Assembly (NCBI GenBank): GCA_021850485.1
Contig: JAJZLY010000007.1
Location: 62,001 to 126,000, forward strand
Direction: 5' to 3'
DNA from: Bacillota bacterium
GTDB lineage: Bacteria > Bacillota > Sulfobacillia > JAJZYS01 > JAJZLH01
Length of the DNA: 64,000 nucleotides
The notes under the pieces were generated by a model. The model searched no databases and had not been told where the DNA came from. It was given only the letters and a program-made list of their open reading frames with translations. Positions 37,759 through 51,557 of the stretch are shown piece by piece (within the stretch, counting starts at the first letter, position 1; every line of letters begins with the position of its first letter). The translations under genes and the position numbers were made by a program.

Positions 37759-38107
37759 GCCCTTAGTCTACAGCGTTGTGCTGCAGGCTGTGCCTGGTCC
37801 ACACTCCACCATAACCCGAGCGATCGGATCGCGGGCCAGATCGCTTGCGGACCACACCCTCACGGCGCCCGCGGAGGCCTCACTTCGAGGTGGCGCACAG
37901 AAGAGACGGCTCAGCCCAGCCCGGCCGAGCCAGACCCCAGGTCAGCCGCCTCACCTGCTCGTGGTCTTTGGCAACGGCCAGATCCGGCTGATGCCCAAGC
38001 AGGGTAGCGGTACTAGGGTCCTACCCTCTTAGCGTCGGCCCGGCGTTGCCCCGTGCGCCCGCGGCCGATCAGACCAGATGCGGCTGGCTCGACAAAGACC
38101 CTATCAA
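37759..38107. other. Non-coding gap between two methyltransferase genes
   Basis: 349 nt. Open frames here lack ribosome sites and family similarity. GGGTAG/CTACCC arms near 38003-38028 could form a weak hairpin. No promoter, RNA gene or repeat was recognised. Confidence 0.4.
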
Positions 38108-38851
38108 TCAGCGCCCATAGACAGAAACAGCGTTACGGCTGGAAGAGGCAAACGGCTGTTTGTCCCAGCCCGCCCAGCGCTCCTTCAGACGTAGTCCGGC
38201 GATGCGCGCCATCAGATCTAGCTCGCTGGGCCAGATGTAGCGGGTGACGATTGGGTACAGGCGCACCCCTTGCGCCGACAGGACCACGTGGCTTTCCTCA
38301 AGTTGCTGAGTCAGCGGGTCGTAGCGGCCCACATCCAACGTCACCTCTCGCGTACTAATCTGCTCGGCGTCCACGTACTGGCCGTCGCGCAGCTGGCTGA
38401 GGTAGGTCGGAACCAGGGTCTCCACAACGAAGCACCCGCCTTCGCTGAGATGGCTCGCCACATTCACAAAGCAACGCACCTGATCGTCTTGAGTCAACAG
38501 GTTGAAGATCGTGTTGTAAACCAGGTAGATCAGAGGGTATGTGCCATCGACCGGCACGTCCGCAAAGTCGCCCATGGTGATCGACAGTCTCTCACCGCCA
38601 GGCTTGGCGCGAAGCTTCTTGACCATTGGCTCGGACAGATCGACGCCATCGACCCGGATGCCCTGGGCGGCGAGAGGCAACGCGATGCGTCCGGTGCCGA
38701 TGGCCAGTTCCAATGCCGGTCCGCCGCCAGCCAGGGCGGCCAGGAAGCTAACGGTCGACGTCTCGTCCCCCCGCGGCTCGTCGTCGTAGATGGCAGCGCC
38801 GTCCTCGTCGAAGCTGTCCATCGGCTTGTAGTCTTTCATGTCGCTGACCAT
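38108..38851 (-). CDS. Class I SAM-dependent methyltransferase
   Basis: About 247 residues. DEDGAAIYDDEPRGDE at the N-terminus, motif I ALELAIGTGRIALPLA, VDGVDLSEPMVKKLRAKPGG, IYLVYNTIFNLLTQDD and a C-terminal beta-rich half. It matches a common family of methyltransferases with AIGTGR instead of GxGxG. The start is uncertain: ATG 38851 or 38839, neither with a good ribosome site. Confidence 0.8.
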   Translation of the reverse strand: MVSDMKDYKPMDSFDEDGAAIYDDEPRGDETSTVSFLAALAGGGPALELAIGTGRIALPLAAQGIRVDGVDLSEPMVKKLRAKPGGERLSITMGDFADVPVDGTYPLIYLVYNTIFNLLTQDDQVRCFVNVASHLSEGGCFVVETLVPTYLSQLRDGQYVDAEQISTREVTLDVGRYDPLTQQLEESHVVLSAQGVRLYPIVTRYIWPSELDLMARIAGLRLKERWAGWDKQPFASSSRNAVSVYGR

Positions 38852-39077
38852 ACTACGGCAGATCGGACGGCACAACAGACCGCAGCTGTGCGGCGGTGCC
38901 TGACAGCCCACAGGGGCGTCGTGACGGTCACCTCCGGGCTCTGTCCAGTGCGGTGGCTCGACTCGTGCTTTTCGGTCGCATGTCGAGGTGCGTCGCCCAC
39001 GGGGGCTAGCATCTTCTTGCAATGTTCATGACCGAAATCCGCCAGCACGATGTGCCTCAGCCTGATATGGTGGCGCT

Positions 39078-40601
39078 ATGCTCGATCATGACATTTGCTA
39101 CCGGGCGGTCCAAAGCAGAGATGCTCGCTTTGACGGCATGTTCTTCACCGCGGTGCGCACCACCGGCATCTACTGCCGGCCGAGTTGTGGTGCCAGGACG
39201 CCGCTGCGTGACCATGTGCACTTCTATCCGACGGCCGCGGCGGCTCAGCAGGCTGGATACAGGGCCTGTAAGCGGTGCCGTCCGGATGCCACCCCCAACT
39301 CTCCGGAATGGAACAGCCGGTCCGACGTCGTGGGCCGGGCGATGCGCCTGATCGCCGACGGCGTCGTCGATCGCGAGGGCGTGGCCGGACTCGCCAAGCG
39401 GCTGTCCTACAGCCCCAGGCAGGTCAACCGTCAACTTTTGGCGGAACTGGGCGCCGGCCCTCAGGCCTTAGCCCGGGCCCAACGCAGCCGCACCGCCCGC
39501 ATCTTGCTGGAGACAACGGCTCGCCCGATGACGGACGTGGCATTCGCAGCGGGATTTCGCAGTGTGCGCCAGTTCAACGAAACCATCCGGGCTGTGTATG
39601 CGCTCACGCCCAGTGCCGTACGCTCTCGGGTGCACCCCCGCACGGCCGCTCCCCAAGGCCCGAGCGCCGATGTGATCCGACTTCGGCTGCCCTATCGGCC
39701 GCCGCTCGATTTCCGGGGTCTCTTGGAGTTCCTGGCGGCCCGGGCTATCCCCGGCGTCGAGGAATGCACTAGCGACACCTACAGACGGGTGTTGGCTCTG
39801 CCACACCAGCTGGCCGTTGTATCTCTGCAGGCACCCCAACGGTCGCTCCAGACAACGCCATCGGTCCGTTCGCCCTACATCGATTGCGCGATCCGCTTGC
39901 AAGACTTGCGCGACCTAACCGCCGCCGTGCAGCGCTGCCGCCGGCTGCTCGACCTGGACTCTGATCCGCAGGCCGTCGCCGCCGTGCTGATGGGTGATGC
40001 CCGCTTGGCTCCGCTCGTCGCTGCCAACCCGGGCCGCCGGGTAGTAGGTCACGTCGATGAGCATGAACTGGCGGTGCGAGCGGTGCTCGGCCAGCAGGTC
40101 TCGATCGCCGCCGCTCGCTCGCTTGCCGGCAAACTCTCCGTCCGCTATGGCGAAGCTCTGCCTGCTGCCGACGGCACGCTCACCCATGCCTTTCCGACGG
40201 CCGCGGCCTTGGCCGCGGCGGCGCCGCTGGATCTGCCCATGCCGAATGCCCGCCGGCAGGCGTTAGGCGCCCTGATCGCGGCGCTGGCCGAGGGCAGGAT
40301 CAGACTCGATGCCGGTGCCGACCGCGACGCGGTGTCAGCGCAGCTAGAAGAGTTGCCTGGGATCGGTCCTTGGACTGTCGCCTACATTCGCATGCGTTCG
40401 CTGTCTGATCCGGACGCCTTCTTGGCGACCGACTTGGGCCTGCGGCAGGCCATGGCCAAGCTCGGCCTGCCCACCGGCCGTAAGGAGGTGTTGGCCCTGG
40501 CCGACAAGTGGCGACCGTGGCGAGCCTACGCCCAGCAATACCTGTGGGCCGTGACCGGGACCAGGTTAGCGCCTCAGTCGTCTGATGGTGTGCGAGCGTA
40601 G
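39078..40601 (+). CDS. alkA: Ada-AlkA fusion: regulator and 3-methyladenine glycosylase
   Basis: 507 residues in four parts. The N-Ada zinc domain has four cysteines (GIYCRPSCG, ACKRC), where the methyl-acceptor cysteine senses methylphosphotriesters. An AraC helix-turn-helix follows (LAKRLSYSPRQVNRQL, DVAFAAGFRSVRQFNETIR), then AlkA_N, then a HhH-GPD glycosylase with ELPGIGPWTVAYIRMRSL and the catalytic aspartate in LATDLGLRQ. Role: methylation-induced activation plus excision of alkylated bases. The ogt gene follows after 51 nt, so together they cover the repair set that E. coli splits as Ada and AlkA. Confidence 0.93.
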   Translation: MLDHDICYRAVQSRDARFDGMFFTAVRTTGIYCRPSCGARTPLRDHVHFYPTAAAAQQAGYRACKRCRPDATPNSPEWNSRSDVVGRAMRLIADGVVDREGVAGLAKRLSYSPRQVNRQLLAELGAGPQALARAQRSRTARILLETTARPMTDVAFAAGFRSVRQFNETIRAVYALTPSAVRSRVHPRTAAPQGPSADVIRLRLPYRPPLDFRGLLEFLAARAIPGVEECTSDTYRRVLALPHQLAVVSLQAPQRSLQTTPSVRSPYIDCAIRLQDLRDLTAAVQRCRRLLDLDSDPQAVAAVLMGDARLAPLVAANPGRRVVGHVDEHELAVRAVLGQQVSIAAARSLAGKLSVRYGEALPAADGTLTHAFPTAAALAAAAPLDLPMPNARRQALGALIAALAEGRIRLDAGADRDAVSAQLEELPGIGPWTVAYIRMRSLSDPDAFLATDLGLRQAMAKLGLPTGRKEVLALADKWRPWRAYAQQYLWAVTGTRLAPQSSDGVRA

Positions 40602-40652
40602 GCCGCAGATCGTCTCGCCCCAGTCTCATGTCAGCACAGCGAGGTGACGGCA

Positions 40653-41189
40653 GTGTCAGTACATATCGATCTTGTCGACGAGACAGAATTGGCCAGCCCT
40701 GCGGCCAGGAGCCGATTTTACGCCACGGTGGCGAGTCCGGTCGGGGAGTTGCTCCTGCTCTCCGACGGGGTCGCGCTGACTGGGCTCTACATGTCTGCAA
40801 ACCGGTTTTCGCCCCAGATCTCAGCCGCCATGCGCCAGGACCGGGCCCCTTTTGGCGAGGCGCTCCGTCAGCTTAGGGCCTACTTCGACCATCAGCTGAC
40901 CGCCTTCGAGCTGCCCATCGCGCCCTACGGCACCCCGTTCCAGCGACGGGTCTGGCAAGCGCTGTTGGCGATTCCCTATGGCCAGACCACAAGCTACGGA
41001 CAACTGGCTCACCTCCTGGGCGATGCCAGAGCGGGGCGCGCCGTCGGGCACGCCAACGCGAGAAACCCGCTCGCCCTGATCGTGCCCTGCCACCGGGTGA
41101 TCAGTTCGTCTGGCCGGCTGACCGGCTATGCCGGCGGCGTAGAGCAAAAGCAGTGGCTGCTGGCCCACGAGGCGGTCGCAGCGCGATGA
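40653..41189 (+). CDS. ogt: Methylated-DNA--protein-cysteine methyltransferase
   Basis: Suicide repair enzyme taking methyl from O6-methylguanine. 178 residues: a ribonuclease-H-like N-domain, the helix-turn-helix FQRRVWQALLAIPYGQTTSYGQLA, and the acceptor cysteine in IVPCHRVISSSG. GTG 40653 is chosen because GAGGTGA lies 6 nt upstream. It is downstream of ada-alkA, probably in one operon induced by alkylation. Confidence 0.95.
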   Translation: MSVHIDLVDETELASPAARSRFYATVASPVGELLLLSDGVALTGLYMSANRFSPQISAAMRQDRAPFGEALRQLRAYFDHQLTAFELPIAPYGTPFQRRVWQALLAIPYGQTTSYGQLAHLLGDARAGRAVGHANARNPLALIVPCHRVISSSGRLTGYAGGVEQKQWLLAHEAVAAR

Positions 41190-41251
41190 CGACCATCGCT
41201 GTTGCAGCGATGCCAGCACCAAGCACCGGCACCGGCACTTTCGACTAAGGC

Positions 41252-42160
41252 ATGCGTAAGCTCACCTGGCCCACGCAGTTGGCCCTGTTGGTCATGATCT
41301 GGGGATTTTCGTTCTTCTTCATCAAGGTCGGCGATCAGGGGCTTTCCCCGCTGCTGGTGGTATTTGGGCGGATGGCCTTTGGCGCCGGCACGATCTGGAT
41401 CGTGATGGCTATCCGCAAGGAGCGCCTGCCACGCCAGTGGCGAGTGTGGGGTCAGATGGCTGTGATCGCCTTGTTGTTCAACGCCGCGCCGTACGCCCTG
41501 TTTGCCTATGGCGAGCTGCGAGTGTCCTCTGTGCTGGCCGGTATCCTCAACGCCACCACGCCGCTGATGGTCGCGCCGCTCGCCATGCTCCTGTTGCCCG
41601 ATGAGCCGCCGACCGCCAGCCGGCTGAGCGGCCTGCTGATCGGTTTCGTGGGCGTCTTAGTGGTGCTCGGGGTGTGGACCGGCTTAGGCGGCGGGCAGGC
41701 GGCGGGCAGTCTGATGTGCCTTGGCGCTGCCCTGTGCTACGCCATAGCCACCATCCTCGCCCGCCGCCTGCTAACAGGCCGGCAAGACGGTGTCATCGCC
41801 CTGGCCACCTGTCAACTGATCTGCGGCACGCTCGAGGTGGCCATTTTCTTGCCGTTTTTCGCCCGTCTGCCAACCAGCCTGCCAGTCGGCCCGATCGCCA
41901 GCGTCCTGGCGCTGGGCGTGCTGGGCACCGGCATTGCCTTCATTCTTCAGTACGCCATCATCCGCGAGGCGGGTGCCATCATGGCGTCGATGGTCACCTA
42001 TCTGATCCCCATCGTCTCCACCTTGGCCGGCGTGGTCCTGCTCGGCGAGGTGATGACCTGGAACGAACCGCTGGGTGCGGTGGTGGTCATGGGCGGCGTT
42101 GTGATCTCACAGGGTACGATGCAAAGGCTCCGCCAGCGCCGTCTCTCAGGCTTGCCCTAG
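41252..42160 (+). CDS. DMT/EamA-family transporter
   Basis: 302 residues with ten predicted helices in two EamA repeats (WGFSFFFIKVG at the start; PLMVAPLAMLLLPDEPPT closes the first; YLIPIVSTLAGVVLLGEVMTWNEPLGAVVVMGGV closes the second). Members export amino acids or metabolites; the substrate is unknown. It lies 62 nt after ogt on the same strand. Confidence 0.9.
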   Translation: MRKLTWPTQLALLVMIWGFSFFFIKVGDQGLSPLLVVFGRMAFGAGTIWIVMAIRKERLPRQWRVWGQMAVIALLFNAAPYALFAYGELRVSSVLAGILNATTPLMVAPLAMLLLPDEPPTASRLSGLLIGFVGVLVVLGVWTGLGGGQAAGSLMCLGAALCYAIATILARRLLTGRQDGVIALATCQLICGTLEVAIFLPFFARLPTSLPVGPIASVLALGVLGTGIAFILQYAIIREAGAIMASMVTYLIPIVSTLAGVVLLGEVMTWNEPLGAVVVMGGVVISQGTMQRLRQRRLSGLP

Positions 42161-42335
42161 AAGCCGCCCAGGGCGCCAGCACCTGAGTGAGCACAGCCAG
42201 CCCATACCGTCTCCACGGGCTGTGATCTTGAAGCGCACCGCAGACGAGGGTGCGCCTTTGGATCTTGGCTGGGCCGTCCGCAACCGTCTTTGCCAATCGC
42301 ATCGCGGTCGTCGACAGCGGGAATCGGTGCACCGT

Positions 42336-42367
42336 GGTGCGCTTAGCGGTGCGCCTAGCGGTGCAGC
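42336..42367. repeat. 12-bp tandem repeat at the end of the SIS gene
   Basis: GGTGCGCTTAGC, GGTGCGCCTAGC, then a partial GGTGCAGC. On the minus strand each unit carries a stop codon in the SIS frame (TAG, then TAA 12 nt later), so the duplication produced two in-frame stops. Confidence 0.7.
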
Positions 42368-43383
42368 TGACGTGCTTTCAGGTACTTCGGATCCTCCCGC
42401 CGCAACAGATCTGGATTGGTGCCCCTCTGGATAGCTGCGCCCAGGGTGATCAGGTGCATGGCGTAAAGCGCCAGCCAGGGAAAGAGCACTTCTGCCCCGC
42501 TGTCCGAGCCCAGGCCGACAGCTGCCGGATCCACCACCTTGCCCTGAAAGCCTACTGTCCGCCTGACCAGTTCGAATTCGGCTGCCCGCCGCTGGTCGCT
42601 CTTGGCGCTGAGCAGCGCGACCACCGCCGTGTCCGGGTTGGTGAGCGGAATGTAGCCATGGAAGAAGGTCTCAAAGGGGATGGCCAGGGCTGGTAGGTAG
42701 GCGGCTTCGGCCAGCTTCAGCGACCCCTCCTCGGCCACCGGCCAGACCCGGTCGGAGGCCACCAGCAAGGCATGCGTAACCTGCGTCCAGTTGATCCACT
42801 CGGCGATCTCCTGGCGTCTGGCGTACAGTGCCTCCAGACCGCTGGCCAGGCGAGCGCGATCGGGCTGCAACACGCTGCCTGATGTACCGCGCCGGCGGTC
42901 GCTGCTGGCCGCCACTTCCAGCGCCAAAAGACTAAGTACCATCACACTGACCGTATGACACAGCGACTGATCCTCGCCAAAGCCGTTGTCCACCACCACG
43001 CTCGCCAAGGACGCCGCCTCAGATTCCGGGTGACCGGTGATCAGCACCACCTGGTCCCCTTGCCGCTGGCGTCGGCGCATCAGCTCCAGGACCGTCTTGG
43101 TCTGACCGCTCTGGGTCAAGACCACCAACAAATCCTCATTGGACAGCGGCACCGCCTCCGTCAGCAGATCGCCCGCTTCCTGGCAGCCGACCGGGAATCC
43201 TTGAGCCTGAAGGTGCGTGGCGGCCAGATGGGCGGCGAAATACGAACTGCCGCAACCGGCCAACACCAGACGACGAAACGGGCGCAACCCCTGATCGCGC
43301 AACTGCGTGCGCACCCGGTCTGGAGCGGCTAGCGACGCCACCAGCTTGGGTGTGAGACCGAGCTCGACTTCCATCCGACTCAT
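42355..43383 (-). CDS. SIS-domain protein (GlmS-isomerase/FrlB-like)
   Basis: 342 residues with two SIS domains: LVLAGCGSSYFAAHLAA and VVLTQSGQTKTVLELMRR in the first; EEGSLKLAEAAYLPALAIPFETFFHGYIPL in the second; a C-terminal NPDLLRREDPKYLKA tail. The fold handles phosphosugars and resembles the isomerase half of GlmS and the fructosamine/glucoselysine deglycases. Last gene of a compact operon after the nitrilase pair and the thioesterase. AGGAGGG precedes the ATG. Confidence 0.85.
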   Translation of the reverse strand: MSRMEVELGLTPKLVASLAAPDRVRTQLRDQGLRPFRRLVLAGCGSSYFAAHLAATHLQAQGFPVGCQEAGDLLTEAVPLSNEDLLVVLTQSGQTKTVLELMRRRQRQGDQVVLITGHPESEAASLASVVVDNGFGEDQSLCHTVSVMVLSLLALEVAASSDRRRGTSGSVLQPDRARLASGLEALYARRQEIAEWINWTQVTHALLVASDRVWPVAEEGSLKLAEAAYLPALAIPFETFFHGYIPLTNPDTAVVALLSAKSDQRRAAEFELVRRTVGFQGKVVDPAAVGLGSDSGAEVLFPWLALYAMHLITLGAAIQRGTNPDLLRREDPKYLKARQLHR

Positions 43384-43388
43384 CTGCT

Positions 43389-43787
43389 TCAGCCCTCCTG
43401 CCGTCTCGCCAGAAACGTGCCCTCGGCCTCGGCCAGGATCTCCTCACCGTGACATAGGCGAGATTTAGCCCTACCCAGCCGGCGGTGCAGCTGGATGCGC
43501 TCTGCTGTCAGCGAGAGCTCCACGCCGAGCGGCACCGGTTTCAGGAAGCGAACCGTCATCTGGGCGGTCATGCCTCGCCAGCCCTCCTCGGCCAGCGCGT
43601 AAAACATGGCTTCGTCCAGCAAGGCGCTGACCACGCCGCCGTGCGCCACCTGCCGCCAGCCCTGCACCAACTCCGGCAGCACCAGGTGAGCACTGCAGCG
43701 GCCGCCGTCCACCGTAAAATGCACCTGCAGACCGATCGGGTTGTCCGCACCACAGATCAGACAGCCCCGGTCATCGACGAGTTGCAC
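43389..43787 (-). CDS. Hotdog-fold (PaaI-type) thioesterase
   Basis: 132 residues. An N-terminal CLICGADNPIGLQVHF with a CxxC, then WRQVAHGGVVSALLDEAMFYA, the hotdog helix with the HGG-x8-DE catalytic region, and VRFLKPVPLGVELSL. Cleaves acyl thioesters or acts on related acyl compounds (family knowledge). GTG 43787 has GAGGAGGGG 6 nt upstream and overlaps the end of the active nitrilase gene by 17 nt. Confidence 0.87.
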   Translation of the reverse strand: MQLVDDRGCLICGADNPIGLQVHFTVDGGRCSAHLVLPELVQGWRQVAHGGVVSALLDEAMFYALAEEGWRGMTAQMTVRFLKPVPLGVELSLTAERIQLHRRLGRAKSRLCHGEEILAEAEGTFLARRQEG

Positions 43788-44841
43788 CGCTCGCCCCTCC
43801 TCGCCAGAATCCGCGGTAAATCGCCGGAAAGTAGGCCCGAATGAAGGCGGCGTTGGCCCGGATCGGCTCCTCCTTGCGAAAGGCGCGCAGCGCATCCATG
43901 TCCAGATCGGCCAGCACGATCTCCTCGTCGTCGGACAGCGCCTGAGCCAAGACCCCGTCTCCAGTCGGCGTCAGATCCAACGGCGCGTAGATGCCACTGC
44001 GGCCGGTGAAGGTCAGATCCAAGGCGCTGCCCACCATGCAGGACTGGATACCGTAGACGCCGCTCTCCTGCACCCTCGGCCACAACCCGCGCAGGGACTT
44101 GAACGGGTTGCCCGAGGGGTCTGGATCGGCCACGGGCAGGCAGACCACCTCCGCGCCCTCGGCGCTCAGGATGCGAAACGTTTCGAAGTAGGTGGCATCC
44201 ATACAGATCGGCTGGGCCACCCGCCCGATCGGCGTGTCCAAGACGACCAGTTCGTCGCCTGCGGCAAAGCCCCACTCGGCTTCCAGCGGCAGCAGGTGGC
44301 ACTTGAGTTGGGTGCCCATCAGTTGGCCGCGCGGTCCAAACAAATAGGCGATGTTGTACACGCGCCCGTCACGGCTCATCACCGGCATCGATCCGGCCTG
44401 AATCATCATGCCGTAGTCGCGGGCCAGGCGGCTGAATACCGACAAGTAGATCCGCTCCGCCGACTTGCCGACCAGCTCCACGATGCTGGAGACACTGAGA
44501 TCCGGGCCAATGCGGGCCAGTGCCTCCTCCATCGACCCCGTGGCAGTGATCCGCTCGAAGCGGGGCAAGATGCCAAACAGCATCATGCCCACATCCTCCG
44601 GGAAGACGACCAGTTCCGCGCCGCCGGCAGCAGCCTGGTTCACCAGTTGCGATACCGTACGGGCGAAGGCGCCGGCCGAGGTCAGAAAGCGAAAGCGCAT
44701 CTGGACGGCAGCCACCCGCACCACGCCCACCCGCGGCGTGGCGACGGCGCCCCGCTTCGGCCGACCCAGCGCCCGGTGCGCCTTGCCCGGACGCGAAGCC
44801 AGCCACAGGCGAAAGCGCACCATCCACAGGTCAAAGCTCAT
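43771..44841 (-). CDS. Carbon-nitrogen hydrolase (nitrilase superfamily), catalytic set intact
   Basis: 356 residues. Catalytic triad Glu82 (VVFPEDVG), Lys180 (GTQLKCHLLPLE) and Cys213 (QPICMDATYFE), followed by SALDLTFTGRSGIYAPLDL. A basic N-terminal extension of about 40 residues precedes strand 1. It should hydrolyse an amide, carbamoyl or nitrile; the substrate is unknown. It is translationally coupled (ATGA, 44838-44841) to the upstream paralogue that lacks all three residues, and its end overlaps the thioesterase gene. Confidence 0.88.
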   Translation of the reverse strand: MSFDLWMVRFRLWLASRPGKAHRALGRPKRGAVATPRVGVVRVAAVQMRFRFLTSAGAFARTVSQLVNQAAAGGAELVVFPEDVGMMLFGILPRFERITATGSMEEALARIGPDLSVSSIVELVGKSAERIYLSVFSRLARDYGMMIQAGSMPVMSRDGRVYNIAYLFGPRGQLMGTQLKCHLLPLEAEWGFAAGDELVVLDTPIGRVAQPICMDATYFETFRILSAEGAEVVCLPVADPDPSGNPFKSLRGLWPRVQESGVYGIQSCMVGSALDLTFTGRSGIYAPLDLTPTGDGVLAQALSDDEEIVLADLDMDALRAFRKEEPIRANAAFIRAYFPAIYRGFWRGGASGATRR

Positions 44842-45719
44842 GGCCGAGCCTCCGGTCGTTCCTGCCAGTGCCGGCGGTACAGATCCGGATTCAGGTGCCG
44901 AAGCAGCGGATAGCGTTCCCGCAGTGCATACAAATCGGCCGGCTCGAGCTTGGCTGAGCGCACCTGCTGGGATAGGACATAGCCCGCTTCGCCAAAAAAT
45001 CCGGTCTCACCGGGGGTCAGCTCACACGGGGCGAATACCGCCAGCTTCCCATCGACGCCCAGATCGAAAAAGGTGCCGCTAAGCCCGGTCTCCAGACCGA
45101 ACGTCTGGTTCTGCTGCACCTCTTGCCACAGCCCGGCCATCGCCCGCGCCGAGCCGTAGGGGGCGATCGGCGCCAATGGCGCCACCAGCAAGTCGGCGCC
45201 TTGCAAGGTGAGCACCCTGGACACCTCGGGCACCCAGGGGTCAGCCCCGAGCAACAGTCCGACCCGCATCGGGCCCACCTGCCACACGGCCACCTCGGCC
45301 GCAGCGATCAGCTCCGCCTCCCACAGGTAGGCATGGGTCTGCTCCTGCCAGCCCAGCAGGCGTCCTTCCGGGTCGAACAGGGCAGCCCGATGGGTGTAGC
45401 CGATCGGTGCCGGCAGCCATACCGATCCCGGCACCAGGTAGATGTGGCGTTCTCTGGCCAGTTCCTCGCCGATGGCCAGATAGCTGGCCTCCAGGTCCGC
45501 TCCGGCTTGGCGCAGGCGCTCGGCCAGGCCGACCGGCACCATCGACAACTCAGCGGGCAGAAGGCCCATCGCCATCAGACCAGGAAACACTACCAGTGAC
45601 TCTGTGGGCACGCCGGCGCCAGCGATGTGGCTCAGCATGACAGACTTCAGTTGTGCCGGGTCGGAGAAATGGCGAAACGGCAGACGAAAGCCAACCACCG
45701 TCAACTCGGCTGCGCTCAC
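44838..45719 (-). CDS. Nitrilase-superfamily pseudoenzyme
   Basis: 293 residues aligning over the whole length with the downstream nitrilase: SLVVFPGLMAMG against LVVFPEDVGMM, RLLGWQEQTHAYLWEAE against QLMGTQLKCHLLPLEAE, and RVGLLLGAD against RVAQPICMD. The C-termini also match (LYRRHW / IYRGFW). The catalytic Glu, Lys and Cys positions are Gly47, Gln127 and Gly158, so no catalysis is expected. The reading frame is intact, with GAGGAGG before the GTG, and it is coupled to the active copy. That suggests a regulatory or structural partner, probably in a hetero-oligomer. First gene of the operon. Confidence 0.82.
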   Translation of the reverse strand: MSAAELTVVGFRLPFRHFSDPAQLKSVMLSHIAGAGVPTESLVVFPGLMAMGLLPAELSMVPVGLAERLRQAGADLEASYLAIGEELARERHIYLVPGSVWLPAPIGYTHRAALFDPEGRLLGWQEQTHAYLWEAELIAAAEVAVWQVGPMRVGLLLGADPWVPEVSRVLTLQGADLLVAPLAPIAPYGSARAMAGLWQEVQQNQTFGLETGLSGTFFDLGVDGKLAVFAPCELTPGETGFFGEAGYVLSQQVRSAKLEPADLYALRERYPLLRHLNPDLYRRHWQERPEARP

Positions 45720-45782
45720 CGTCGACCTCCTCGTCCTGCAGGCCGCATCTCACACCGCCGTCGAATTCCAGATGCCAAGGGA

Positions 45783-47138
45783 GTGGTCCATCTGGCAGTC
45801 TCCGCCGCTGGCGCCCAATCGCCCGCCGGCGATCGCTTTTTGTCCTTGTTCTCCCCGGCTCTGCGGCTGGTCGGGGAAGACTATGTCGGGCTGGGCCGGC
45901 TGAGTCAACTGATGGTCGCCGGCTCCTCCATCGCCGGCGCCGTCAGCGGCCAGCGCCATGACTACTGGGTGGTGCTCACCGAGGAAAGCGCCCATTGCTC
46001 ACATTGTAGCCGACCGTGTCGCCATGGGGCGGCGCTTGCCGCGGCCTGGCAGCGCACACCCCAAGACTTCGTCGATATCGTCGCCCTGACCGACCGGCTG
46101 CTGCAAACCCAAGACAGCGCGCCGCTGGTCGCCGGATTGCTTGAGGATCGGGTCCTGGACACCCTTCTAGCCTTCACCGACCTGCCCTTCATTCCTCCTT
46201 CAGACCCAGTCTTGGACCTGGCACGCCTGCCCCAACTGCAGCCGTCGGAGCAGGCGGGTGCCCTGCGCCGTCTGCTCCAGCGCTTCCCGGCTGATCCGCT
46301 CATGGTCACCCAAGCGCTCCAGCAGTTGGCACGCCTGCTCCTCACCGATCTGGCCGACATCGCCCTGCACACTGAGGGTCCTAACCTGCTGCCTCTAGCC
46401 ACGGCGCTGGCCAGCCGGCTGGACGAAGACACCATGGCCACCTTCTTGGACCGGATCTTGGTCCACTTCCACGATCTGCGCTCTCGGGGCCAAGATGCCG
46501 GCCCTTTGCTGTTGCGCGCCGCCCAAATTCTGGCCCTACGCCCGAACGACACCCTGGCGTTGGCCTATCTGGCCGGCCTTCCCCAGGCGCCGCTGGCTCT
46601 TTTTGAAACTGCGGCTGAGCTGGCCCTCCTGGCTGGCTCCCCCCGTCAGGCCCTGTCCCTGCTTGATCAAGCGTTGCTCACCGCCGAAGGCGGCTCCCGG
46701 CTGCAACTCAGCGTGCGGGCCGCCGAAATCGCCGCAGCCAGTGGCAGTGCCCGCGAAGCGACACTGTGGCTCGGTGCGCTCACGGAAGGCAGTCAGCTGG
46801 CGCTCAGCCAACTCACGCGCCGCTTCCCGCATGTGCTGCGGGCGGCGCATGGCGAGGTGGTGGCCGCACTGCTGGCCCGAGATCCAGACCTTGCCTGTCG
46901 GACGGCCCTGGCTGCTAGCGATCTGGCTCTGGCCTTTTCACTCGCCACCGATCACGACCTATCGCTGGCCACCCTAAGGCGCCTGGTGCCGCCGGCGCTT
47001 AGACGGCAAATCGATCCCACCGTCTGGTCGGTGCGTGGACTCAGCGCCGCTGAGCAGCGCCAGTTCCACCGCCTGCGCCAGCGGCCGTTGAAGCCGGCAG
47101 CGGCCAAGGGAGGTGCCAACAGCCGTGGCCAGCGCTGA
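45783..47138 (+). CDS. SWIM-like zinc-finger protein
   Basis: About 451 residues. Near the N-terminus GLGRLSQLMVAGSSIAGAVSG and YWVVL lead into a Cys72-x2-Cys75-x3-Cys79-x-His81 cluster (HCSHCSRPCRHGAALAAAW), a variant of the SWIM finger CxCx(n)CxH. The remaining 350 residues are Leu/Ala-rich helical repeats (TPR-like). The start is unclear: GTG 45783 follows AAGGGA very closely; a CTG at 45792 is better spaced. It is divergent from the nitrilase operon and overlaps the next gene by 14 nt. DNA- or protein-binding function, unknown target. Confidence 0.7.
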   Translation: MVHLAVSAAGAQSPAGDRFLSLFSPALRLVGEDYVGLGRLSQLMVAGSSIAGAVSGQRHDYWVVLTEESAHCSHCSRPCRHGAALAAAWQRTPQDFVDIVALTDRLLQTQDSAPLVAGLLEDRVLDTLLAFTDLPFIPPSDPVLDLARLPQLQPSEQAGALRRLLQRFPADPLMVTQALQQLARLLLTDLADIALHTEGPNLLPLATALASRLDEDTMATFLDRILVHFHDLRSRGQDAGPLLLRAAQILALRPNDTLALAYLAGLPQAPLALFETAAELALLAGSPRQALSLLDQALLTAEGGSRLQLSVRAAEIAAASGSAREATLWLGALTEGSQLALSQLTRRFPHVLRAAHGEVVAALLARDPDLACRTALAASDLALAFSLATDHDLSLATLRRLVPPALRRQIDPTVWSVRGLSAAEQRQFHRLRQRPLKPAAAKGGANSRGQR

Positions 47139-47925
47139 CTTCGGCCACCAGACCCTGCTGGCCGACGTGGCCAAGCTGCTGGGCGAGGCGGCCCAGGTTC
47201 TGGAGCAGACCTGGGGTCAGGGCGCCCAGGTCCGGCACAAGGGGCCAGCGGATTTGGTCACAGACACCGATCTGGCGGTGCAGCGCTTCTTGATCCCCCG
47301 GCTTCGCGCGTTGCTGCCAGGCAGCGTGGTGCTGGCCGAGGAGGAGGGTCAGGTGCCCACTGCCACCGACCGCCCCTGCTGGGTGGTCGATCCGGTAGAC
47401 GGAACGTCCAACCTGGTGCACGGATTTCGCTACGTGGCCATCTCTGTGGCGCTCAGCGATGCTCAGGGGCCGATCTTGGGCGGCGTCCACGATGTCTTCG
47501 CCGGCCGCCTCTACACCGCTTGGCGCGCGCACGGCGCCTGGGTGGACGGCACACCGATGCACGGCTCAAGCGTGACCTCGCTGAGCGACGCCTTGGTGGC
47601 CTGCGGCACCCCATACGACAAGAGCACACCGGCGGCCGTGTTCGCCCCAATCGCCCAGGTCTGGCAGGCCTGCCACGACCTACGAGTGCCAGGGGCGGCG
47701 GCCTTGGAGCTGGCCCAGCTGGCTGAGGGGCGGCTCGATGCCTTTTTCGAAGCGGACCTGCAGCCGTGGGACTTCGCGGCTGGGTGTCTGCTGGTGACCG
47801 AGTCCGGCGGTCAGGTCACCGACTGGGCCGGTCGCGGGCGCACCTTGCAGCGCGGCACCATCGTCGCAGCCAACCGCCGCCTGCATCGCCAGCTGCTGGA
47901 CATCTTGACGCCAACTGAGCCGTAG
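47125..47925 (+). CDS. Inositol-monophosphatase-family phosphatase
   Basis: About 266 residues. The three metal motifs are present: LVTDTDLAVQ with LAEEEGQ, WVVDPVDGTSN, and LQPWDFAAGCLLVTESGG near the C-terminus. Li-sensitive Mg-dependent phosphatase fold; substrates in the family include inositol phosphates, 3'-phosphoadenosine 5'-phosphate and fructose bisphosphate. GTG 47125 lies inside the 3' end of the SWIM-like gene, with GGAGGTG about 9 nt upstream, so it is co-transcribed. Confidence 0.9.
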   Translation: MASADFGHQTLLADVAKLLGEAAQVLEQTWGQGAQVRHKGPADLVTDTDLAVQRFLIPRLRALLPGSVVLAEEEGQVPTATDRPCWVVDPVDGTSNLVHGFRYVAISVALSDAQGPILGGVHDVFAGRLYTAWRAHGAWVDGTPMHGSSVTSLSDALVACGTPYDKSTPAAVFAPIAQVWQACHDLRVPGAAALELAQLAEGRLDAFFEADLQPWDFAAGCLLVTESGGQVTDWAGRGRTLQRGTIVAANRRLHRQLLDILTPTEP

Positions 47926-47950
47926 CCAGACATCCTGGCCGGGAGGCTGC

Positions 47951-48472
47951 ATGACCGAGAGCGCTGACAAGAAGGAGGCGGCGAGTCAGGTGAAGGAGCT
48001 GGAAGCGCTGCGCCAGGCCCTGGATAGCCGCGCCTTCAACCGCCTGCTGGCCCTCACCGACCATGGCCGGCGCTGGCCCTTTGGCGACGACGGCGAGGAG
48101 ATCTGCGACAGCTTGCTGCTCGACGCTGACGAGGACACCGTGGAATTGTTGCTCCGCTGTCAGGAGATTTTGGGCATGGACGCCCCGCCGACACTCACCC
48201 TGGATCTGCCAGAGCCGCCGGTCACCACCGAATACCTCAGTTACGACTTTGACGGTGAGGGCCCGCTTCTCGACCACTTTCTCGGATCGCTGCGCCAAAA
48301 CGGCCTGCCGGCAGTGGCGGTCGAGCAAGGCGGCGTGCGCGTCATCGTCACCGTCGCCACCACCAGTCCCTACGAGGCGTTTCAGGTACGCCAGATGGTC
48401 CAAGAACTGCATCGCTTATCCAAGCTGGCTCTGGGCCGGCCCATGCGCGGCCACCGTCTGCCAGAACCCTAG
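47951..48472 (+). CDS. Hypothetical protein, 173 aa
   Basis: Not recognised. Charged N-terminal helix (KEAASQVKELEALRQAL), then DHGRRWPFGDDGEEICDSLLLDADEDTVELLLRC, a proline-linked middle (DLPEPPVTTEYLSYDFDGEG) and a C-terminal VRVIVTVATTSPYEAFQVRQMVQELHRL helix. Probably soluble. GGGAGG lies before the ATG. It lies 25 nt after the phosphatase gene, so likely part of its operon; the stop is 5 nt from the convergent transglutaminase-like gene. Confidence 0.65.
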   Translation: MTESADKKEAASQVKELEALRQALDSRAFNRLLALTDHGRRWPFGDDGEEICDSLLLDADEDTVELLLRCQEILGMDAPPTLTLDLPEPPVTTEYLSYDFDGEGPLLDHFLGSLRQNGLPAVAVEQGGVRVIVTVATTSPYEAFQVRQMVQELHRLSKLALGRPMRGHRLPEP

Positions 48473-48477
48473 TCGGC

Positions 48478-50514
48478 CTAGGCCAGATACCCCAGCCAGC
48501 CCACCAGCGGCCTACCGGCGCCAAGCAGCCGGATCAGATCCCCCCGGGCAGGCCCGAATCCGGTCCGGGCCACCCCAGATGGGGCATACAGTTGGAGCTC
48601 CAGCCATTCTGCCAGCCGCGGCGCTTCTGCCCCCAGCCACTGGCGGGCGGTGTCCTCTAAGTGCCACGGGCGACGGGCCAACCAAGTCAGAGCCCGCAGG
48701 CGGCGGATTCGGCCAGCCCACAGCCATCCAGCCACCGCCAGCACCGCCAGCCCGCTGGCCACGCTGGTCAGCGGAAAGGGCCCGGGCCTCGCCAGCGAGG
48801 TTTGACCGGAAAGCCCATTGAGCGTCTGGTGAATTTGCACGACCTTGGTCCGCTTGGCCGCGCGTGTCGCCGCCGCGCCGGCTCCTTGAGCGGCGGCCAC
48901 ATAGGCCGGCAGGGACTGACCCTGGCTAGGCAGTCCGACGCCAAAGCCGGGCGTCGGGTCGATGGGCAGCCAGCTGGAGCCGGCCCGCGTCGCGGTGTAC
49001 GGATCGAAGCCACCCACATAGGGTCCGGTGCCGCTGGCGGCCAGAGCCGTCCAACTCAAGGCCTGGGGGAAGCCGGGGGTGAACACCTCGACCCAGCTGT
49101 GGGCATCTGTACCACGCACCACGTCTAGGCCGCCCAGCTGCTGGCCGCCCGTGAAGCCAACCACCAGCCGGGTGGGAATGCCTACCGCCCGGGCCAGAAC
49201 TGCCAGCGACGATGAAAAGGCGTTGCAGTCGCCCAGGTGCGAGACAAACAAGAAGTGGTAGACGAAGTCCTGACCGTTATCCTGCGGGTAGTGGAGCGTG
49301 TAATGCTCGTGCGTCTGCAAATAGCGGACGATGGCCATCACCTGCAGGTAGACGTTGGGGCCGACGCCACGGACGATCTGATGCGCCAGGCGGGTCACCG
49401 CAGGCGGCAGTTCGGCGGGCAGTTGCAGGTAGGGCGAAGACGCCCAAGCGGCCGGGTTTACGATCAGCGGGCTGGCGGCGAGAGCGGCGGCTGACAGCTC
49501 TGGCACACTCACCGTCACGGTGTAGGTCGATCCTCCAACCGAAAAAGCGTGCTGCTGCGGGAACCACAAGGCCGTGGTGGTGCCGGTCAGGCGTTCAGGC
49601 AGACCCTGGACCGGGGCGTAGGGCAGAGCGGTCAGCAAGTGCACCGTCTCGGTGGCTGCCAGTTGTTGCCCTAGGACCGCTGGGGCAGCGGCGGTCTGCA
49701 GACCGAGCGGGATCGCCTCGGGCGGCAGGGTCGCTGGGTAGATGGTGGGCGGCGGCAGGGAGTTGGTCCAGCCCTGCCCGGTGTAATAGGTTGCGCGGTA
49801 CAGCGTCCAGTACAGCGGCAAGGCGCCACGGGCCGTGAACAAGATCTGCTGGCTCAACACCGGGGCCTGGGTCAACTGGCTGATCGGCACCAGCGTCGTG
49901 GTCGTCTGCGTGCCGGTGCCCCCTTGCAGCGCGCCCACGACCGAAGGAGCCGGACCGACCAGCAGGGTCACCAGAATGAGGGCCGTAGACAAGATGGCGA
50001 CCCAGCTCCAGTTGCGGGCTCGACCCAGCCCGCCGAGGTCGGCACGGCGAATCGCCAGCCACAGAGCGAGGGTCACAAACAGCGCCCAGGTTACGTGGCC
50101 GCTGATTTCCTTGGCCAGGGCCAGTGCCGCCACGTTCACCAGCAACTCGATCAGCCGCACGCCAAGTCCGGCGGTCATCTCCTCGACCGCTACCAGTGCC
50201 GTGGCCGCCACTTCGAACAAGATGCTGGCCTGAGCAGCGCTCAGCTGGCCCCACTTGCCATCGGCCAAGTGGTGCAAGAGGCCAAGTGCGGTCACGGTCA
50301 GCGGTTGCGTGCCAAGGCCGACACGCAGCGCCAAGAAGACGCCGACCCAGAGTACCCGGGCGGCCAGCCGCCACCAGGTCTGCGGAATGGCGGCGGCCGC
50401 CACGGTACCGATCGTGAAGCCCACCAGGACCAAGGTGTGTACGGCACCGCCGGCTGAAAGCAGCGCAAACAGTGCGGGCAGTGGCCAGAGCGCGCCGAGC
50501 AGCCGGCGGCTCAC
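48478..50514 (-). CDS. Transglutaminase-like membrane protein (TgpA family)
   Basis: 678 residues: about six N-terminal helices (residues 10-200), an extracytoplasmic transglutaminase-like domain and a single C-terminal TM helix with a short cytoplasmic tail. The papain-like triad is Cys in HLGDCNAFSSSL (about residue 430), His in TDAHSWVEVF and Asp in WLPIDPTPG. GTG 50514 overlaps the DUF58 stop (GTGA). The third gene of the conserved MoxR-DUF58-transglutaminase cassette. Confidence 0.9.
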   Translation of the reverse strand: MSRRLLGALWPLPALFALLSAGGAVHTLVLVGFTIGTVAAAAIPQTWWRLAARVLWVGVFLALRVGLGTQPLTVTALGLLHHLADGKWGQLSAAQASILFEVAATALVAVEEMTAGLGVRLIELLVNVAALALAKEISGHVTWALFVTLALWLAIRRADLGGLGRARNWSWVAILSTALILVTLLVGPAPSVVGALQGGTGTQTTTTLVPISQLTQAPVLSQQILFTARGALPLYWTLYRATYYTGQGWTNSLPPPTIYPATLPPEAIPLGLQTAAAPAVLGQQLAATETVHLLTALPYAPVQGLPERLTGTTTALWFPQQHAFSVGGSTYTVTVSVPELSAAALAASPLIVNPAAWASSPYLQLPAELPPAVTRLAHQIVRGVGPNVYLQVMAIVRYLQTHEHYTLHYPQDNGQDFVYHFLFVSHLGDCNAFSSSLAVLARAVGIPTRLVVGFTGGQQLGGLDVVRGTDAHSWVEVFTPGFPQALSWTALAASGTGPYVGGFDPYTATRAGSSWLPIDPTPGFGVGLPSQGQSLPAYVAAAQGAGAAATRAAKRTKVVQIHQTLNGLSGQTSLARPGPFPLTSVASGLAVLAVAGWLWAGRIRRLRALTWLARRPWHLEDTARQWLGAEAPRLAEWLELQLYAPSGVARTGFGPARGDLIRLLGAGRPLVGWLGYLA

Positions 50515-51557
50515 TGCGCCCACCGCTGGTGGCGGCCCTGGGCGAGGAGATCCGCCAAACCAAGTACCTCCACACCGCTGGCAGGCCCGCCCGGTTCCGA
50601 GCACCACAGGCGAAAGTGCCCACCAGGATCACTGACCCGACTGCCACTGATCAACAGCGGCAAGCTGCCGACTCTCAGCTCAGGCAGCGGGCTCCCTCCC
50701 CCGTCTGGCCTCAGGCGAATGAACAGGTCCCACAACAGCTGTTCTTGCAACTCCTGTACGCTCACCTGGCGTCCAGCGACGAACAACGAGACCGCCAGCC
50801 GACGGCGCACCATGGCAAAGGTCACAGACGCCGCCAGCGACACGGCGACCTCAAAGCCGTCGGCACTGGCATAGGAGCTGCGCCGGGTGTCCAGGCCGAC
50901 CAGACAGGGCAGGCTGGTGCGGTGCCATGCCTCTCTGACCTGGACCTCACCGAGGCGGGCCGTCTGCGGCCAGTGCACCCGCGACAGCCGATCGCCAGGC
51001 TGCCAGGCCCTGGCGCCAGCCGGATCGTCATCGGCTGCACTGACGCTGGATCCCAGCACCGCCAGCGGCCCGAAGACGCGCAGCGGGTCCACGTCGACGG
51101 TGGCAGGCCGCACCCGCAACGGCACCCGCTCTTCGCGCACCAGTTGGCGGTCAAGCAGGCCGAAGGGGTCGCGATAGCGGTCGGATAGGTAAAAGGTGTG
51201 TTCGCCGCGTCGCAACTCGCGAAGGGGCATGGCGAAGACCGCCTGCTGACTCCACGCCCAGCCGCTGGCAAAGACCGTCTCGGTCGGCGCTTGCACGGTC
51301 ACCTGGTAGTATCCGGGCACCACCGCCCGCAAGTGGGCGGTCATCCGAAATGGCCGCCCCGCCGCCGGTAGCGCAGGGTCCACTCGCAGCCGGAGTCGGC
51401 CGGCTGGTTGAAACAGGTGGCAGCAGGCTGTGAGTGCGCAGGCCATCGCCGCCACCCGCAGCAAATCGCCCCACACTGTGCCGGGGAACAGCCGGCTGAG
51501 CAGGATCGTCAGAACCACAGCCAGAGCGACCAGCCAAGGTTGGAGCTTGGCGCTCAC
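50511..51557 (-). CDS. DUF58 domain membrane protein
   Basis: 348 residues with two N-terminal helices, a strand-rich part, then the DUF58 motif (AWQPGDRLSRVHWPQTARLGEVQVREA) that precedes a vWA-like region. Works with MoxR ATPases in complex assembly (family knowledge). Its ATG overlaps the stop of the MoxR gene by 4 nt and its stop overlaps the transglutaminase start. Confidence 0.9.
   Translation of the reverse strand: MSAKLQPWLVALAVVLTILLSRLFPGTVWGDLLRVAAMACALTACCHLFQPAGRLRLRVDPALPAAGRPFRMTAHLRAVVPGYYQVTVQAPTETVFASGWAWSQQAVFAMPLRELRRGEHTFYLSDRYRDPFGLLDRQLVREERVPLRVRPATVDVDPLRVFGPLAVLGSSVSAADDDPAGARAWQPGDRLSRVHWPQTARLGEVQVREAWHRTSLPCLVGLDTRRSSYASADGFEVAVSLAASVTFAMVRRRLAVSLFVAGRQVSVQELQEQLLWDLFIRLRPDGGGSPLPELRVGSLPLLISGSRVSDPGGHFRLWCSEPGGPASGVEVLGLADLLAQGRHQRWAQ

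Follow-up and report, generated by a model that had tools for sequence, protein, structure and literature searches.

A catalytically dead nitrilase homologue as a probable partner subunit of its active paralogue in Bacillota

Introduction

Why would a bacterium retain, immediately in front of an intact nitrilase-superfamily gene, a second copy from which the catalytic residues are missing? The question is posed by two adjacent genes in the window, by which we mean the whole 64,000-nucleotide stretch of Bacillota DNA analysed here. The nitrilase superfamily is a textbook case of a homo-oligomeric enzyme group. Dimers of its members form through the A surface (PMC4700190). This surface is built from helices α5 and α6 and has a suggested part in positioning the catalytic Cys, and its mutation costs the enzyme its activity (PMC4981594). 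Activating pseudoenzymes are known from other enzyme families (PMC10211241); for nitrilase pseudoenzyme pairs, heteromeric nitrilases or GH125 enzymes associated with a nitrilase, we found nothing relevant in the open-access literature. The original prediction for this locus, made from the sequence alone, was of a hetero-oligomeric amidase whose dead subunit gates or positions the active one. Here we argue, with a probability of roughly 70%, that the products of the two genes form one obligate heteromeric hydrolase of the nitrilase superfamily, in which a non-catalytic subunit supports the catalytic one.

The gene pair

The two products align end to end, as originally described, with 27% identity over their full length (BLASTP, E 5e-28), and the residues that replace the triad in the upstream copy fall opposite the Glu, Lys and Cys of its partner, a correspondence on which BLASTP and the multiple alignments agree. 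The triad of the active copy was itself assigned by alignment to the PH0642 amidase (3ivz). The intact frame, strong ribosome site and stop/start overlap first reported for the upstream gene likewise stand (Table 1), its open reading frame running unbroken for 293 codons from a GTG start.

Table 1. Features of the gene pair in the window, and the dimer-surface helices of the dead copy
Feature	Position	Strand	Remarks
Dead nitrilase homologue (pseudoenzyme subunit)	44838..45719	-	293 aa; G47/Q127/G158 at the triad positions
Active nitrilase-superfamily partner	43771..44841	-	356 aa; E82/K180/(E187)/C213
ATGA stop/start overlap coupling the dead and active genes	44838..44841	-	
Shine-Dalgarno AGGAGGT	45725..45731	-	5 nt before the GTG of the dead copy (read in the sequence)
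Hotdog (4HBT) thioesterase gene, directly downstream of the pair	43389..43895	-	Same neighbour in same-order relatives
Dimer-surface helices of the dead copy	α5, residues 164-172; α6, residues 190-204		Taken as 164-174 and 190-205 for the column entropies

Both products exceed the Pfam CN_hydrolase (PF00795) cut-off of 23.2 bits, the active copy at 80.7 and the dead copy at 29.2, and the catalytic Glu-Lys-Cys is present in the former and absent from the latter. The AlphaFold (AF2) model of the dead copy is of high confidence (mean pLDDT 93.5, pTM 0.92) and superposes on the aliphatic amidase 2uxy (VIA Z 28.4, rmsd 2.9, 259 residues aligned) and on other amidases and Nit proteins (Z 25-28); the model and the 2uxy match together place it in the alpha-beta-beta-alpha sandwich fold. 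That fold is common to both copies and to the known superfamily members (2uxy, the PH0642 amidase 1j31/3ivz, Nit2 and NitFhit), whose Glu-Lys-Cys recurs in the active copy. Judged by its fold and its residues, the dead copy is a nitrilase homologue and no nitrilase-type enzyme. The active copy falls below the NCBIfam equivalog cut-offs (best nitrile_Arch, 69.8 against 500; AguB, 50.3 against 410) and reaches none of the named branches tested with NCBIfam, namely AguB, Nit2, true nitrilase and deaminated glutathione amidase.

Several other features of the neighbourhood may be recorded. A divergent gene beside the pair (45627-47138, + strand), conserved in the window's order and with no Pfam match, encodes a C-x2-C...C-x-H motif that by eye resembles a SWIM zinc finger. 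A transglutaminase-core protein (PF01841) is encoded at 48478-50607 (- strand), and within the genus the neighbours of this gene resemble, again by eye, DUF58 and MoxR-type AAA proteins. Rfam returned no match within window positions 38000-50000.

Co-inheritance and origin of the two copies

A search for the same pair elsewhere, which the original prediction had proposed as a check, was carried out at two scales. In a first set of 60 related genomes the tandem pair was found in about 30, in families throughout the class, and an alignment of 30 upstream and 30 downstream copies placed the full triad in 28 of the downstream and in none of the upstream proteins. A scan of 84,980 species genomes was then queried with active copies, the dead copies having been set aside as queries because their alignment was too diverged, and the best 80 of 209 relatives were examined. 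Among these, every named locus with enough upstream DNA (74 of 74) carries a dead copy as the immediate upstream neighbour of the active one and in the same orientation, four of them as a fusion, and no active copy without a dead one was found at these 74 loci. Thermaerobacter, Symbiobacterium, Dethiobacter, Syntrophomonadaceae and Halanaerobiales are among the taxa that these named loci represent. Because the pair stays adjacent, and sometimes fused, across many Bacillota lineages, the dead copy probably serves as an obligatory partner subunit rather than being in decay.

A phylogeny of 42 dead copies, 42 active copies and 12 further nitrilases from these genomes (96 proteins in all) points in the same direction, each of the three sets lying by itself on one side of a branch (SH-aLRT 92, 98 and 97). 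As the dead copies constitute one clade, a single ancient duplication behind the dead/active split would be the simplest reading, and the inactive paralogue has been inherited together with the active enzyme (74 of 74 loci, one clade) in the manner expected of an activating pseudoenzyme of the prozyme kind. The dead copy is moreover under purifying selection: comparisons inside the window's genus give dN/dS values of 0.11-0.20 (dead copy) and 0.07-0.17 (active copy), which are approximate since synonymous changes are high. Taken by itself, the missing triad might suggest local pseudogene decay or an annotation artefact, and the original prediction would have fallen had close relatives retained the triad, with decay confined to this genome. 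No upstream copy among the relatives has it. With the same losses in all relatives, one ancient clade, an intact frame, a strong ribosome site and a dN/dS this low, we reject local decay and consider either explanation to have a negligible chance of being correct.

Residues at the former active site

What has taken the place of the triad? The catalytic Glu column of 92 dead copies is occupied by Ala in 58, Gly in 20, Pro and Tyr in three each, Gln and Ser in two each, and Val and Glu in one each; the Lys column holds Gln in 85 of 91 copies, with Glu in three, Ala in two, Ser in one and Lys in none; and the Cys column holds Gly in 74 of 92, Cys in seven, Ala in four and other residues in the remainder. 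The full triad occurs in none of the 92, whereas among 97 active copies Glu, Lys and Cys are kept at 99, 100 and 98%, respectively. The near-invariant Gln, together with a QxQTH motif kept at 77-93%, is more uniform than neutral loss predicts and lends some weight to the chief rival of a partner subunit, namely a regulatory sensor whose pocket binds the substrate, the product or another metabolite and switches the active partner allosterically. However, a ligand pocket of this kind sits poorly with a Glu position free to become Ala, Gly, Pro, Tyr, Gln or Ser, with a Cys position that is mostly Gly, and with one group in which the N-terminal half is shortened, and we therefore regard a sensor as unlikely, albeit the alternative most worth keeping in mind.

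The seven dead copies that retain Cys (in the motif ICEDAWYP), in each case without Glu and Lys (L074, L085, L089, L092, L093, L095 and L104), could possibly represent an intermediate stage, or fossil, of a stepwise loss. Two genomes of the window's order, from two families, depart from the rule in the opposite direction: one downstream copy has Ser for Cys (L034:6760-7800, - strand), and the other has Thr for Cys and Asp for Glu (L035:7838-8929, + strand), such that both members of these two pairs look dead from their residues. Since these downstream copies have lost their Cys, catalysis is not required everywhere. It could be argued from them that the whole pair is a non-catalytic scaffold or binding module in which the downstream active site is not the main function, but the 98-100% retention of Glu, Lys and Cys among the 97 active copies leaves this very improbable.

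Fusions, shortened copies and the dimer surface

The partner-subunit reading is further favoured by natural gene fusions. Dead and active copies occupy one reading frame in family f30 (G040, G058 and G462), in f39 (G057 and G531, with G532 of the same family unfused), in f88 (G108, G146, G181 and G434) and in f97 (G126). Because two of the fused loci, L055 and L093, have unfused nearest relatives on the tree (L124 and L074, respectively), the fusion of dead to active copy probably arose more than once. One natural fusion of relatives was modelled with AF2 from an alignment of the eight fusions only (eight rows), as a joint alignment of fused and single proteins seemed to put dead copies on the active half. 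The model reaches a pTM of 0.79 despite a disordered 37-residue linker, so that the two domains are positioned relative to each other with fair confidence. The original prediction would also have fallen had no interface between the two proteins been predicted; in this fusion from relatives the domains do pack together, although the pTM does not tell which surfaces meet.

Where, then, might the two copies meet? Column entropy across the dead copies averages 2.28 bits, falls to 1.01 in α5 and 1.44 in α6, and stands at 2.8-3.0 in two N-terminal helices; the dimer-surface helices are hence the best-conserved helices of the dead copy, at about the same level as those of the active copy (1.15 and 0.92 bits). 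They persist even where much else has gone. In a divergent group (L162-L170, L180 and L181) the dead copy has been cut down, in most cases to about 200 residues with loss of the N-terminal half, and what it retains is the PEI/VSR helix, the LWREVQQNQ helix, the PCE...TG loop and the C-terminal tail, which by sequence are the features to be expected of a partner standing in for the second monomer; the active partners in this group keep Glu, Lys and Cys. These shortened copies still lie directly upstream of the intact active copy, often near mutS.

It is conceivable, in addition, that the dead copy acts by itself, as a binding protein or as an enzyme whose catalytic residues have migrated, its pairing reflecting operon organisation only. 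Conserved D160, E165, E210 and E233, the seven copies that keep Cys, and the precedent of migrated catalytic residues in some pseudoenzymes (PMC10211241) would all be compatible with such independence; nonetheless, the repeated fusion with the active copy, the lack of any active copy found without a dead one at the 74 loci with enough upstream DNA, and a conservation that is strongest in the dimer-surface helices make it improbable, more so than a sensor.

A possible mechanism and its precedents

A heteromer with a non-catalytic partner is thus strongly supported by the evolutionary record assembled here, and to this extent the original prediction is supported, in part; its amidase identity and its gating or positioning subunit are inferred. 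The sequence of events that we envisage begins with an ancient duplication yielding two nitrilase copies, one of which would have kept Glu-Lys-Cys while the other lost the triad but kept the fold and helices α5 and α6. Most likely, the dead subunit occupies the second monomer's position at the A surface and, from there, holds the active copy, its catalytic Cys included, in a working conformation. Known superfamily members are described as homodimers or homo-oligomers founded on the A-surface dimer (PMC4700190), whereas here one of two always co-encoded copies is dead.

The closest functional precedents lie outside the superfamily. In trypanosomal AdoMetDC with its prozyme and in TbPRMT1 ENZ/PRO (PMC10211241, Table 1), an inactive paralogue pairs with and activates an active partner, which is the mode proposed here, although the folds and organisms are unrelated and the activation measured in those systems is inferred for the nitrilase pair. 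The chloroplast ClpP/ClpR core (PMC6508832) similarly combines catalytic with conserved non-catalytic subunits in one complex, though as a large ring protease and not a two-gene hydrolase. A dead subunit kept across much of a phylum would offer a clean natural test of the role of the A-surface dimer in catalysis, since naturally fused pairs, unfused pairs and pairs with a shortened dead copy can all be compared. Such pairs are likely to be annotated merely as two nitrilases.

A glycosidase and a sugar symporter as module partners

In many relatives the pair is accompanied by a GH125-like glycosidase and a GPH-family sugar:cation symporter, in the operon order glycosidase, dead copy, active copy, symporter in L152, L153, L160 and L161; this module, invisible from the window alone, alters the likely context of the pair. 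The glycosidase scores 46.7-92.6 bits against the GH125 family PF06824 (cut-off 23.4), a likeness restricted to the C-terminal half of the profile, and it differs from the GH125 alpha-1,6-mannosidases (2nvp, 3qt9), which match its C-terminal part, by a longer N terminus. Among 398 genomes of the phylum the glycosidase occurs in 59, the pair in 80 and both in 53 (odds ratio 102; Fisher p 1e-38, which overstates independence owing to kinship among the genomes), and the two lie within 6 kb of each other in 38 of the 53. In G038 (L050:4822-8550, - strand) the active nitrilase and the GH125-like glycosidase are fused in a single 1242-residue frame, with both Pfam domains confirmed. Neither the window's genome nor the searched members of its order have the glycosidase, although they do have the pair; the pair therefore has some function by itself.

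In most lineages the pair would work with the glycosidase and the symporter, and this company makes an amide, carbamoyl or nitrile group, borne by a glycoside or sugar acid, the probable substrate. One may tentatively go further, at somewhat less than even odds, and propose an undescribed three-part Bacillota system for the uptake and breakdown of a glycoside that bears an amide-type group. Its parts would be a sugar symporter, a GH125-like glycosidase and a heteromeric nitrilase-superfamily hydrolase in which the dead subunit is obligatory. The module points to an uncharacterised glycoside pathway, and the three-part system, if true, would contain an enzyme dependent on a pseudoenzyme subunit, the first such case known in the nitrilase superfamily. 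Mannosylglyceramide, cyanogenic glycosides and bacillithiol-like compounds were weighed as specific substrates and set aside for lack of support. As partners, the divergent gene with the zinc-binding-like motif, the thioesterase, RuvABC, a lyase and mutS were set aside as synteny, each being confined to one order or group.

The module also varies in its details. The operons of L150 and L159 both include a gene for an Amidohydro_2 protein, to which L150 adds one for a ROK kinase. Within the otherwise complete operon of L150, the GH125-like gene lies in two frames (L150:6177-7978, + strand), as either a frameshift or a genuinely split gene.
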